From: Acidobacteria bacterium UBA7540
GTDB lineage: Bacteria > Acidobacteriota > Terriglobia > UBA7540
Assembly: GCA_002478145.1 (NCBI GenBank)
Contig: DLMI01000133.1
Coordinates: forward strand, 24,250-38,115
Direction: 5' to 3'
Length of the DNA: 13,866 nucleotides
In this document: piece after piece, positions 994-12,843 of the stretch
How the letters are laid out: the number at the start of each line of letters is the position of its first letter
Position numbering within the stretch: the stretch's first letter is position 1
Translations under genes and position numbers: made by a program
The notes under the pieces: generated by a model
Seen by the model: the letters and a program-made list of their open reading frames with translations, nothing else
Told to the model about the DNA's origin: nothing
Databases searched by the model: none

Positions 994-1018
994 ACCACCA
1001 AGACACCAAGGCACCAAG
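994..1018 (+). repeat. Left inverted repeat of the GxxExxY unit
   Basis: This 25-bp unit has a quasi-tandem internal structure: CCAAGACA, CCAAGGCA and CCAAG words repeat every 8-9 bp. It is the inverted partner of 1407-1431 with two mismatches. Confidence 0.8.
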
Positions 1019-1021
1019 CAA

Positions 1022-1435
1022 TCAAAGGGCAATTCGCTGTATCCCTTGCTTTATGAGTGCGCTATTAAAGTTCACTAGTAAACCGAGCCGATAACCGGAA
1101 AGTTTGAGGTAGGTCAGCAGTTGCGCTTTGTGAACGGGCAGCAGCACTTCGACAGCCTTGAGTTCTACAACCACCCTCTTTTCCACCACAAGGTCCAGCC
1201 GAAGTCCGGCGTCCAGGCGGAGGTTATCGTACACCACGGGCAGTAGCACTTGCCGCTCCACATTCAGCCCTCGCCTGTTGAGTTCGTGCAATAGGCAGAC
1301 CTCATAGACACTCTCCAGCAGGCCCGGGCCGAGGGCCTTATGCACGGCAAATGCAGCATCAACGATCTTTGAAGCAACTTCGTCGGTTTCCTTGGGGATG
1401 GGCTCTCTTGGTGTCTTCGTGTCTTGGTGGTTCAT
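1022..1435 (-). CDS. GxxExxY protein (PD-(D/E)XK nuclease-like superfamily)
   Basis: A 137-residue protein of the GxxExxY family, placed in the PD-(D/E)XK nuclease superfamily; its cellular role is not known. The family name motif is at Gly38-Glu41-Tyr44 (GLLESVY). The nuclease-like core follows: Asp81 in LDLVV, Glu91-x-Lys93 in VVVELKA, and Gln105 in KAQLLTYL. The usual family length is about 125-140 residues. I chose the ATG at 1435 (MNHQDTKTPR) because the longer reading from 1570 adds 45 residues of low-complexity, family-unlike sequence. The first ten residues are encoded by the right inverted repeat. Only a weak purine stretch (GAAG) precedes the start. All expected catalytic residues are present, so it is not an obvious decayed copy. 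Confident in the family, not in the function. Confidence 0.88.
   Translation of the reverse strand: MNHQDTKTPREPIPKETDEVASKIVDAAFAVHKALGPGLLESVYEVCLLHELNRRGLNVERQVLLPVVYDNLRLDAGLRLDLVVEKRVVVELKAVEVLLPVHKAQLLTYLKLSGYRLGLLVNFNSALIKQGIQRIAL
1407..1431 (-). repeat. Right inverted repeat of the GxxExxY unit, within the coding sequence
   Basis: Read on the - strand it begins ACCACCAAGACACG and encodes residues 2-10 of the GxxExxY protein (NHQDTKTPR). It pairs with 994-1018 at 23 of 25 positions. Confidence 0.8.
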
Positions 1436-4254: not shown

Positions 4255-4371
4255 GGCTGATGCCTGGCATGCCTGCCTCGTCGATCGGCAAGAATTACTT
4301 GACTCATCCATTAAGACGCAGAATGATGGGGGTGGGCGATGGAGGCTCATCCCTACGGAGAGAGACCACTC

Positions 4372-5076
4372 ATGTATCTCGCATATCTCGACGATTCCGC
4401 CATAGAGCATAAGAAAACCAAGCTTCAAGTCCTATCGGCGGTTATTGTCAATGATAAGCATTTCCAAGAAATTGAAGTGATCGCTGGCATTCACATCGTC
4501 GATTTGGTTCCGGAAGAAAATATGGAAAATTTTAAGGAGTTCCATGCTAGCGAGCTTTTCAATGGCTGTCGTGTATTTGAGGGAATAGATCAGAGTATCC
4601 GCTTTCGCGCCATGCATTCACTACTCATGCAGGTGCGCGACAAGAAGTTACCCATTGTTTATGGTGCTGTTGATGTACCAAAGCTACGGGGAAAACTGTA
4701 CGGCTCCGCCAGTCCGATTGACATTGCCTTCCGCATCTGCGCTGAGGGCATTGATGGATGGCTTGATGCCAACGATCCTCAACAGTTTGCCGTATTGATC
4801 GCCGATGACTTTGCTGACGGAAAGATTAAGGCAGAACTGAGACAATCATTTCGCCAGCTTAGAAACCAGGTTCGGCCTCCCGATTTTTCCTGTGGTAAAT
4901 TGCAGCACGTTCACGATGGTATGTATTTTGGTGATTCCAAGGATTCCATCGGAATTCAGATGGCCGATCTTTGCTCGTACTTCATCGCAAAACATCTTGA
5001 AGGGGACACAACCGCCGAAGGATTTTATAACACTATTAAGGATCAAATTGTTTATTGCAAGGTGGAACCTGAATGA
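4372..5076 (+). CDS. DUF3800 domain-containing protein
   Basis: A 234-residue protein of the uncharacterised DUF3800 family, often met in accessory and defence-type regions; its biochemical role is not established. Seen motifs: N-terminal YLDDS (5-9, family consensus near Y-x-D-E-S), EFHASELF (56-63), the acidic ADD (144-146) after a hydrophobic strand, and the C-terminal DSIGIQMADLCSYFI (191-205) matching the family's final helix. The spaced acidic residues suggest a metal-dependent, RNase H-like fold (inference). I chose the ATG at 4372 because GGAGAG precedes it at proper spacing and the family starts right at this strand; an ATG at 4339 would add 11 residues. Base composition is visibly more AT-rich than the flanking kinase, consistent with transfer. 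It ends convergent with the next gene, with a 176-bp gap. Confidence 0.85.
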   Translation: MYLAYLDDSAIEHKKTKLQVLSAVIVNDKHFQEIEVIAGIHIVDLVPEENMENFKEFHASELFNGCRVFEGIDQSIRFRAMHSLLMQVRDKKLPIVYGAVDVPKLRGKLYGSASPIDIAFRICAEGIDGWLDANDPQQFAVLIADDFADGKIKAELRQSFRQLRNQVRPPDFSCGKLQHVHDGMYFGDSKDSIGIQMADLCSYFIAKHLEGDTTAEGFYNTIKDQIVYCKVEPE

Positions 5077-5950: not shown

Positions 5951-6049
5951 TCACGACTTGCTCATGAGGGCTTTCTCCACTGCTTCCGGGTTTCTATCGA
6001 TCACCGTCAAGTAGGCGCGCACGGCGCTTTCCGGACGCCTTCGCCCTTC
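5951..6049 (-). pseudogene. XRE/HTH regulator 3' fragment (copy 1)
   Basis: The minus strand reads EGRRRPESAVRAYLTVIDRN then PEAVEKALMSKS and a TGA stop. This is the C-terminal 32 residues of a short XRE-type (HigA/RelB-partner-like) antitoxin whose usual pattern is WEQGRRRPE...LLxVIxxxPEAV. Sequence upstream of 6049 no longer matches (the WEQ is replaced), so only the tail survives. It is about 88% identical over 98 bp to 6743-6840. Confidence 0.75.
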
Positions 6050-6099
6050 AAGTTGTGGATTGCGGGTTACTCCGGTACAATCAGGTGGAGGTGAAAGGC

Positions 6100-6330
6100 A
6101 TGGCGACGGAAACGATCACCATTCAGGTAGACCGCGAAGCGGCAAGAGCCTACAAGGCCGCGCCGGCTGCCGATCAGAGGAAGATGGGGGCGCTCCTCAG
6201 CCTTTGGTTGAAGGACGTGGCCATGGCGGAACCCGCAGCTTTAAAACAAATGATGACCGATCTCAGCAAAAAGGCCCGCGACCGTGGCCTCACGCCGGAG
6301 ATACTGGAAAACCTCTTGAAAGAAGCGTAG
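6100..6330 (+). CDS. Antitoxin of a PIN-type toxin-antitoxin pair
   Basis: A 76-residue protein, probably the DNA-binding antitoxin that neutralises the PIN toxin starting 1 bp after its stop codon. The N-terminus TETITIQVDREAARAYKAA looks like a short strand followed by a helix, as in ribbon-helix-helix-type antitoxins. The C-terminal half, with LSKKARDRGLTPEILENLLK, is amphipathic and is the expected toxin-binding tail. The ATG at 6100 follows AGGTGGAGGTGAAAGGC, a strong purine-rich ribosome site; an upstream in-frame start would add an unrelated stretch containing the XRE-fragment border. Assignment rests mainly on size and on the tight coupling to a PIN gene. The pair lies between two direct repeats made of XRE-gene ends. 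Confidence 0.8.
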   Translation: MATETITIQVDREAARAYKAAPAADQRKMGALLSLWLKDVAMAEPAALKQMMTDLSKKARDRGLTPEILENLLKEA

Positions 6331-6331
6331 C

Positions 6332-6736
6332 TTGCGCTTCGTCTTTGACACCAACGTCCTCATCAGCGCCGCCCTTTCCGACGAATCGACGTCGCGGCGC
6401 GCCTTCGACCATGCCTTGGACCGCGGCACAATCCTACTCTCTTTACCTGTCGTGGCAGAACTTAGTCAGGTGCTCACCCGGGACAAATTCCGTCCCTACG
6501 TCACCGAAGATGAAGCGAGGCAATTTCTCGCCGTGCTTGCCGGGGCATCCCAATGGGTCGAGATTGATGTTCGAATCAGCGACTGTCGCGACCCCAGCGA
6601 TAACAAGTTCCTTGAGCTCGCGGTGAGTGGCCGGGCGACCCACATTATCACCGGAGACGGCGATCTCCTGGCGCTCAACCCTTTTAAGGGAAAGCCGGTG
6701 TTAACTCCTGGTGAATTTCTTCGGGAAGTTCGATGA
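6332..6736 (+). CDS. PIN-domain toxin (putative toxin-antitoxin component, PIN family)
   Basis: A 134-residue single-domain PIN ribonuclease, expected to cut RNA with Mg2+ when freed from its antitoxin. The acidic set is complete: Asp6 in FDTNVLISA, Glu43 in PVVAELSQVL, Asp87/Asp90 in CRDPSDNKFLELA, and Asp109/Asp111 in ITGDGDLL. The sequence style matches the putative-toxin PIN family rather than classic VapC. It starts at TTG 6332, one base after the antitoxin stop, with AAAGAAG about seven bases upstream, so translational coupling is likely. The length is normal and there is no sign of decay. The C-terminus abuts the second XRE remnant. Confidence 0.9.
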   Translation: MRFVFDTNVLISAALSDESTSRRAFDHALDRGTILLSLPVVAELSQVLTRDKFRPYVTEDEARQFLAVLAGASQWVEIDVRISDCRDPSDNKFLELAVSGRATHIITGDGDLLALNPFKGKPVLTPGEFLREVR

Positions 6737-6742
6737 GACATG

Positions 6743-6910
6743 CGACGGCTTGTTCATGAGCGCTTTTTCCACCGCTTCCGGGTATCTATCCATCACCGTC
6801 AAGTAGGCGCGCACCGCGCTTTCTGGACGCCTGCGCCCTTGCTCCCATTCCTGCAGCGAGCGCCGGCTGACGGCATAGCGCCGTGAGGATTCCGCTTGTG
6901 ACAGGCAAGC
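6743..6910 (-). pseudogene. XRE/HTH regulator fragment (copy 2), N-terminus lost and stop mutated
   Basis: The minus strand encodes ACLSQAESSRRYAVSRRSLQ followed by EWEQGRRRPESAVRAYLTVM and DRYPEAVEKALMNKPS. This covers the recognition helix and tail of an XRE antitoxin. The N-terminal part is cut at about 6910, where an inverted-repeat element begins. The TGA present in copy 1 is TCG here, so the frame runs on into the PIN gene's antisense. It retains the WEQGRRRPE motif missing from copy 1. Substitutions in the HTH (SRRYAVSRRS) suggest drift. Confidence 0.75.
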
Positions 6911-12289: not shown

Positions 12290-12387
12290 CTCTGTGTCCT
12301 CCGTGCCCAGAAAAGACTTAACACGGAGGTCACGGAGATCCTCCGTGCTCCCTGTGTTAAGGCTCTGGAGGCACGGAGCACGCAGAG
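12290..12387. repeat. Nested palindrome built of CACGGAG words
   Basis: The inner hairpin arms 12318-12337 (begins TTAACACGGAGG) and 12341-12360 (ends CCCTGTGTTAA) pair at 16 of 20 positions around ATC. Outer arms 12290-12310 (CTCTGTGTCCTCCGTGCCC...) and 12365-12387 (CTGGAGGCACGGAGCACG...) pair again over most of their length. The whole is a 98-bp structure made of repeated CACGGAG/CTCCGTG words. No gene lies inside. Confidence 0.75.
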
Positions 12388-12436: not shown

Positions 12437-12491
12437 ACTTCATCGCGCTGCGCAGCGTAGCGAAGAATCTGCTTTTGGCTGGCTGAGGAGT

Positions 12492-12528
12492 GCAGCAATT
12501 CATAATTCACCATTCACCATTCACAATT
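12492..12528 (+). repeat. 37-bp direct repeat, copy 1 (AATTCAYMATTCAC type)
   Basis: Starts GCAGCAATTCATAATTCACC and continues with CATTCACC and CATTCACAATT words, a quasi-tandem 7-mer structure. Identical to 12807-12843. Confidence 0.85.
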
Positions 12529-12645: not shown

Positions 12646-12806
12646 GTCGTTCCGTCATTTCTTAAAGTCACTATGGTTTCTTGCTTCGTTGAGCGAAAAG
12701 ACATATTGTCTCTAGTTGCAATGCGTGCAAAGAGTCCTACCATGTTTGGCCCCTCTTAAGGGACTAACCGTAAAGCAGGGGGTGGCAAGCACCGCCAAGA
12801 AGGACC

Positions 12807-12843
12807 GCAGCAATTCATAATTCACCATTCACCATTCACAATT
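12807..12843 (+). repeat. 37-bp direct repeat, copy 2
   Basis: Exact copy of 12492-12528 in the same orientation, start to start 315 bp apart. The 278 bp between hold no reading frame of note. Confidence 0.85.

Follow-up and report, generated by a model that had tools for sequence, protein, structure and literature searches.

The window (the whole 13,866-nt stretch of DNA from Acidobacteria bacterium UBA7540 analyzed here) carries an intact gene of the GxxExxY family on its minus strand, with nifS on one side and a kinase-domain gene on the other, and this gene is enclosed by two inverted repeats (Table 1). The arms, of 25 nt each, face inward, are complementary at 23 of 25 positions (92%), and have 388 nt between them; their local alignment score is 40, while 1000 dinucleotide shuffles of the 842-nt region gave at most 33, and the inverted repeats around the gene are confirmed as real. 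The initial annotation, made from the sequence alone, had described this pair, its quasi-tandem words of 8–9 bp, and its almost exact bracketing of the gene, and all three descriptions were borne out: the words are spaced at 8 bp, the stop codon lies close to the distal arm, and the ATG (1435–1433) falls just outside the other. Its further claim that the right repeat encodes the first residues, NHQDTKTPR, is accurate for nearly all of them. The longest open reading frame call opens at a GTG at 1570, but the start at 1435 is preferred because it fits the homologs, which have NHQDTK (65 of 120 listed relatives) or a near variant (102 of 120) within their first 70 residues; the same encoded start words, which the initial annotation had proposed to seek elsewhere in the family, are thus common there. 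The full unit starts ∼145 nt beyond the nifS start.

Table 1. Positions of the GxxExxY unit, its parts, and a gene-free element in the window.
Feature	Positions	Strand	Remarks
Whole unit	994..1435	.	Nucleotide homology to L001/G001 restricted to 989–1437
GxxExxY protein gene	1022..1435	(-)	137 aa, PD-(D/E)XK nuclease fold
5' arm	1407..1431	(-)	Three quasi-tandem words, CACCAAG/CACGAAG/CACCAAG; encodes nearly residues 2–10
3' (distal) arm	994..1018	(+)	Inverted copy of the 5' arm, 3 nt past the stop codon
Solo element	12290..12387	.	Gene-free inverted arrays, same kind of word (CACGGAG/CTCCGTG)

The encoded protein matches PF13366 (E = 1.4e-42) and TIGR04256 (E = 1.1e-43) and passes the curated cut-offs of the GxxExxY and PDDEXK_3 profiles (148.3 bits against 35 for TIGR04256, 145.2 against 22 for PF13366). 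Among 62 GxxExxY sequences, residues H32, E41, E91-x-K93, and Q105xxxY109 are invariant and D81 is nearly so (at least 90%). The set D, E-x-K, and Q-xxx-Y is what we take to be the mark of Cas4/RecB-type PD-(D/E)XK nucleases; these catalytic residues are present and the Cas4-like fold is shared, in agreement with the PD-(D/E)XK-like assignment made initially. The iron-sulphur cluster of Cas4 has four cysteines, and this trait is lacking in GxxExxY proteins, which have a single near-invariant cysteine (C47 in alignment A1). A search by sequence for relatives of solved structure returned none at E up to 1. Judged from its profiles and residues, the protein is apparently an intact Cas4/RecB-like PD-(D/E)XK nuclease. 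The family is very large (at least 8000 relatives in one search), and the accessible parts of the open-access literature, preprints aside, held incidental mentions of GxxExxY and no paper on the role of GxxExxY, PDDEXK_3, or TIGR04256.

In folded RNA of the unit, the arms close one long stem (z = −3.16), which would suit an element acting at the RNA level like the intervening sequences of 23S rRNA, with the transcript stem hiding the start region and being processed (e.g., by RNase III) so that harm to the host is limited. The two are alike in having a small gene inside terminal inverted repeats, and the Coxiella intervening sequence, in the part of the report available, encodes S23p and has a 28-bp terminal stem with tandem heptamers before the S23p gene (PMC4990558). 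However, the window unit lies between the protein genes nifS and the kinase-domain gene and not in 23S rRNA, an Rfam scan of the window gave no family match and no rRNA match, and the unit encodes the GxxExxY protein alone, with only PF13366 found in it, whereas the protein of the intervening sequences is the S23p four-helix bundle. Inverted complementarity is equally expected of a DNA element, and RNA processing would account for expression but not for dispersal, so we regard this explanation as quite improbable.

The window holds further repeats. The two arms of the solo element (12290–12307 and 12370–12387) match at 89%. A AGCGAAGCGAGGAATCTGCTT-type repeat lies just beside the unit (884–904) and again at 12454–12474 (copies 90% identical), and an ATTCACC-type heptamer array, present in two 43-nt copies (12486–12528 and 12801–12843; 95%), resembles words found beside four-helix-bundle genes. 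Direct repeats of 96 nt (5953–6048 and 6745–6840; 90% identical) surround a small open reading frame and a PIN-domain toxin gene (6055–6736), and a DUF3800 protein is encoded at 4339–5076 near the PIN-domain genes.

Inverted arms across the GxxExxY family

Of 274 relatives, 80 were retained in a scan of genome contigs; they come from Acidobacteria, Nostocales, Proteobacteria, Verrucomicrobia, Bacteroidetes, Planctomycetes, and other taxa and include two archaeal records. At each locus, the sequence from −200 to +60 nt of the gene start was aligned with the reverse complement of that from −30 to +300 nt of the stop, and a score of at least 30 was called positive. The first set comprised 76 of 81 loci (the 80 and the window), five being left out because their flanks were too short (L007, L018, L029, L047, and L079); L035 and L052, which have frame breaks near the start, were assigned an expected end. 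Sixty-three of these 76 loci were positive, as were 25 of 29 in a second set (Acidobacteriota) and 13 of 16 in a third. Overall, matching inverted arms were found at 101 of 121 loci, a count that is not fully independent because some loci are close relatives at one site (L013/L016/L019/L020, L060/L062/L063, and L044/L046). The initial annotation had proposed this comparison and had reasoned that absence of the pair from most related genes would speak against its reading; the pair proved to be present at most of them.

Positions of the same geometry elsewhere on the same contigs were positive in 45 of 3846 cases for the first set and in 0 of 170 for the second, and swapped pairs of loci were positive in 9.0%, 20.1%, and 3.3% of cases for the three sets, respectively. 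The mean own-locus score was 43.9 against a permuted mean of 21.3 (the highest of 2000 permutations was 24.4), and 66 of 76 loci exceeded every control position on their own contig. A chance origin of the arms is ruled out by the shuffles together with these two kinds of control. Bracketing as a generic trait of small mobile genes is ruled out by ParE toxin genes, none of which was bracketed (0 of 29 used; L275 of the 30 was left out). Carriage as phage or plasmid cargo was also rejected, with 0 matches in 50,697 phage records and 7 in 72,556 plasmid records.

The arms are arrays of 8–9 bp words, mostly CRCNRAG: at 50 of the 63 positive loci, at least two words of type CRCNR[AC][GT] are present in both arms, the commonest spacings being 9 and 8 nt. 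Words are partly common to different loci, as indicated by the swap rate in the Acidobacteriota set and by the first set, where no more than 35 of 76 loci had their own partner as the top match. Arm similarity across loci grows with protein similarity (Mantel Spearman 0.35 over 74 loci, with 0 of 1000 permutations as high), and in this respect the early suggestion that repeat and protein spread together holds.

The unit in different surroundings and at hslV–hslU

The nearest relative compared (L001 in genome G001) is 76% identical to the window over the unit and over nothing else (Table 1), and nifS in G001 sits on a different contig from the L001 unit. At three places in Brevundimonas away from hslV–hslU (G104:C75, G115:C17, and G079:C366), the match is confined to query positions 645–1130, the unit itself being ∼653–1130. 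Among locus pairs at least 75% identical across the gene, in 23 of 36 the similarity stops, on either side, no more than 150 nt from the gene, and in 13 it extends further; 13 of those 23 alignments start within the gene, a single deltaproteobacterial cluster supplies many, and one pair (L044/L064) is doubtful, as its sister pair L046/L064 reaches the 1500-nt limit. A Nostoc site has a left flank common to relatives, one of which has both flanks; because ∼4.5 kb lies between them, with two long open reading frames and no GxxExxY-sized one above 110 aa, this is not a clean empty site. The gene and its arms behave as a single unit, found in different surroundings and present or absent as a whole.

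Gene copies within a genome were 55–65% identical in 19 of 20 pairs compared, and these copies gave no instance of an intact unit having recently transposed on its own. The twentieth pair (L387/L391, 99%) belongs to G216, in which the GxxExxY unit with its arms lies inside a 1.38-kb IS-like element with IS4/5-type DDE transposase ORFs (L404, L406, L408, L410, and L412; L387 and L391). Twenty-seven places in that genome match model positions 1–53 with near-equal scores (five examined were 98–99.8% identical), and two further copies retain a full-length match. What might have been recent self-movement turned out to be an insertion sequence with the unit aboard and hence is not evidence for it. 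The initial proposal of a mobile or selfish unit was therefore upheld in part: the unit stands alone in differing surroundings, and full, deleted, and remnant states exist at one site (hslV–hslU, described below), but recent self-driven hopping was not seen in the copies compared.

Beside nifS in G001 is a gene-free hairpin of like words, ∼184–310 nt from the matched nifS start. A possible account of such a contrast with the full unit beside nifS in the window is homing, in which the nuclease would cut arrays that lack the gene, after which repair templated by a gene-bearing unit, through homology of the words, would copy the gene between the arms, gene-free hairpins being the empty sites. Words common to both arms are in keeping with this account. 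However, the G001 hairpin scores 29, below the cut-off of 30, and a different gene lies downstream, which leaves the orthology of the nifS-side insertions unproven. In a further genome (G240), L383 lies beside nifS and has nested arms, with CACGGAG words in the outer and TAATTTG-type words in the inner ones.

The hslV–hslU site bears on the same question. Similarity across the gene between hslV and hslU (named by profile) was found in at least 11 of 81 Brevundimonas genomes (L171–L179, L181, and L182); since adjacency of hslV and hslU is the common bacterial order, we infer that the unit came into this site. G092 and G102 keep both arms around an internally deleted gene (L351 and L359), the unit in G066 is truncated, and parts of the left arm in G086 and of the right arm in G096 remain as remnants. 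A scan for words and the end motif, combined with reading, of 20 hslV–hslU gaps found remnants in G092, G096, and G102, a hairpin with different words in G075, a lone word match in G083, and nothing in 15; several Brevundimonas genomes have no common gap because hslV and hslU lie apart. Internal deletion reduces the unit to gene-free forms in which the arms persist, and gene-free hairpins could thus equally be products of deletion rather than the empty sites of homing. Mutual rejection was found between the gene tree and the hslV+hslU tree (AU 0.001 and 4e-10), as exchange of the gene would predict, but the hslV and hslU trees, taken as a control, also reject each other (0.03 and 0.0008), so this conflict is not counted as proof of exchange. 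Homing, on this evidence, is unlikely.

The words at hslV–hslU vary by species and are broadly the same between both arms of a unit. All eight words of L174 are CACCAAG, nearly all of those of L175, L176, and L182 are of ACG type (CACAACG, CACGACG, and a few others), those of L172 and L173 are mostly CACGAAG, and several other units are mixed; the end motif is absent from 3 of the 16 loci examined for words. Words are common to the two arms of any one locus, with a tendency to change jointly, and at hslV–hslU the pattern looks like a concerted change of several words, in excess of what base-pair compensation would need. The hslV–hslU gap of G075 (L346) has a GTGGCGA-type heptamer hairpin where other species carry the GxxExxY unit.

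Gene-free arrays

Most arrays are gene-free. A strict three-word pattern had matches in 10 of 14 gene-bearing genomes, with a maximum of 96 in Komarekiella (three GxxExxY matches), and a reversed control pattern gave at most 6 per genome in the same 14; many of 30 places examined were inverted pairs separated by some tens of bp up to 150 bp. In 247 Acidobacteriota genomes, at least five matches to a looser pattern were present in 71 of 85 GxxExxY-positive as compared to 11 of 162 GxxExxY-negative genomes (odds ratio 70, Fisher 1.7e-35, statistics that ignore phylogeny and incomplete assemblies), and the proportions were still 67 of 85 and 11 of 162 once two arms per gene copy had been subtracted. 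Total matches were 6201 in gene-positive and 434 in gene-negative genomes (control totals 247 and 65), the highest count in one genome being 979. Exceptions were seven gene-negative genomes with at least 10 arrays and 14 gene-positive genomes with fewer than five. Gene-free arrays are concentrated in gene-bearing genomes. Repeats found mostly alone and without any link to the gene had been foreseen by the initial annotation as a result against its reading; they are mostly alone, but they are not without a link, because arrays and GxxExxY are strongly associated at the genome level. A match of arm words to the solo arrays of the same genome was also considered and is weak: arm words best fit own-genome solo words in only 4 of 10 testable loci, and 8 of 18 loci had no array under a narrow word definition.

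Related genomes have hairpins of differing types in the same dnaK–dnaJ gap (L300–L319; gene names read from sequence): CRCNRAG words are present in 2 of 20 (L300 and L301), other word arrays were seen by eye in L307, L312, and L319, and ordinary hairpins occur in others of these genomes.

Gene-free hairpins in this gap (L300 and L301) stand at usual terminator positions, as would be the case if they were regulatory or terminator hairpins kept by the host beside its genes, with no mobility. Very similar words have also been annotated in Geobacter metallireducens as putative binding sites of a global regulator; these “class 2” sites (consensus TCTCCGTS[Y]), as described in the part of the report available, form opposite-strand pairs at variable distance (PMC2700814). 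They share the word type of the GxxExxY arms, as its reverse complement, and its pairing, but are presented there as predicted regulator sites with no gene family linked to them. Against a host function, such arrays are missing from the dnaK–dnaJ gap in 18 of 20 genomes and from most hslV–hslU gaps examined, and the frequent bracketing of GxxExxY and the copies that share only the unit would go unexplained. This explanation, already disfavored, is highly improbable.

Parallel units, known elements, and a proposed mode of spread

S23-type four-helix-bundle genes (TIGR02436) are bracketed likewise at 45 of 60 loci (L141–L170 and L220–L249; 18 of 30 and 27 of 30 in the two sets, with 2 of 177 and 2 of 169 control positions positive). 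Their arms, found in the same and related genomes as GxxExxY, are also inverted and quasi-tandem, mostly with different, locus-specific words of 7–10 nt, and these loci are counterparts of the 23S intervening sequences, with other words. In Komarekiella, one arm of such a locus (L159) is a GGGGACT-type heptamer, which we take to resemble the cyanobacterial STRR repeats.

That another gene family is similarly arranged raises the question of whether GxxExxY is a passenger, either cargo or a tolerated resident of arrays spread by some other activity, such as a transposase acting in trans or replication slippage or template switching at hairpins. Unlike hairpins in one gap across genomes (dnaK–dnaJ, and hslV–hslU in G075) and the amplification of a unit inside an IS element in G216 would fit such a role. 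However, CRCNRAG arrays track GxxExxY specifically, in genomes with four-helix-bundle genes (54 of 60 GxxExxY-positive versus 8 of 53 negative) and in genomes lacking them (17 of 25 versus 3 of 109), whereas, with GxxExxY status held constant, four-helix-bundle genes are linked to these arrays more weakly (p = 0.02 and 0.006). The correlation of arm with protein similarity also speaks against a mere passenger, which we hold to be an improbable role.

Heptamer repeats have been reported in several bacteria: GGGAATC in Xanthomonas (70 and 75 convergent pairs in two genomes), GGGGA(C/T)T in Nostoc, and TAACTGA in Beggiatoaceae are mostly intergenic and quasi-tandem, and the accessible parts of the reports give no mechanism, the TAACTGA study raising a repeat-binding protein as a possible mobile element (PMC4692102, PMC4679880). 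Their word types are nearer to the four-helix-bundle arms than to the GxxExxY arms. Titles and abstracts of the open-access literature, preprints aside, contained no description of a link between such word arrays and GxxExxY, and literal searches of that literature for the repeat strings gave unrelated matches only.

The closest working analogy is with the REP/RAYT (REPtron) and REPIN systems, in which, as far as the reports were available, a low-copy nuclease-type gene has inverted-repeat flanks and many gene-free repeats, often paired, are dispersed in intergenic DNA (PMC2817692, PMC3116915, and in part general knowledge). The GxxExxY gene is likewise flanked by inverted repeats that also occur dispersed. 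However, its product is a PD-(D/E)XK enzyme (PF13366) and not a Y1/HUH transposase, so it is not a member of that system; its repeats are quasi-tandem arrays of 8–9 bp words, whereas REPs are short single palindromes that carry a terminal tag, and its 5' arm enters the reading frame in the window and in many relatives. MITEs and insertion sequences also share features with the unit, namely terminal inverted repeats and internally deleted derivatives (L351 and L359), but the unit has no known transposase, and its arms, unlike those of MITEs, consist of word arrays, which at any one locus tend to match.

We favor, with a probability of roughly 0.55, the reading that the unit in the window is one copy of an inverted-repeat element that is very small, is very widespread, and works as a REP/RAYT-like system with a Cas4/RecB-like nuclease, a low-copy nuclease gene between inverted repeats being accompanied by many dispersed gene-free repeats. 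The GxxExxY protein would drive the movement of its own unit by recognizing its own word arrays, probably on extruded single-strand hairpins or cruciforms, and cutting there. Repair or re-insertion after cutting would then spread the arms, usually without the gene, and repair might also let one arm be corrected from the other. To our knowledge, PD-(D/E)XK proteins do not alone rejoin DNA into new sites.

Together with its arrays, the GxxExxY unit resembles a mobile unit of a very small sort that has drawn little notice. Similar word arrays have repeatedly been described with no cause given, and joining them to GxxExxY provides a testable substrate for the family and a candidate agent for the repeats, as well as a natural example of concerted change among repeat words. 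If the link is true, a Cas4-like nuclease can be the sole gene of a dispersed element. More tentatively, and with some doubt on our part, the GxxExxY and S23-type four-helix-bundle units might be two lineages of one undescribed class of chromosomal micro-elements, each a single small gene between inverted arrays of 7–10 bp words that are kept matched through its own activity, and many of the heptamer and octamer repeats that stand unexplained between genes of bacteria and archaea might derive from this class. Were this so, the GxxExxY units would be among the smallest self-spreading nuclease elements (∼440–480 bp).
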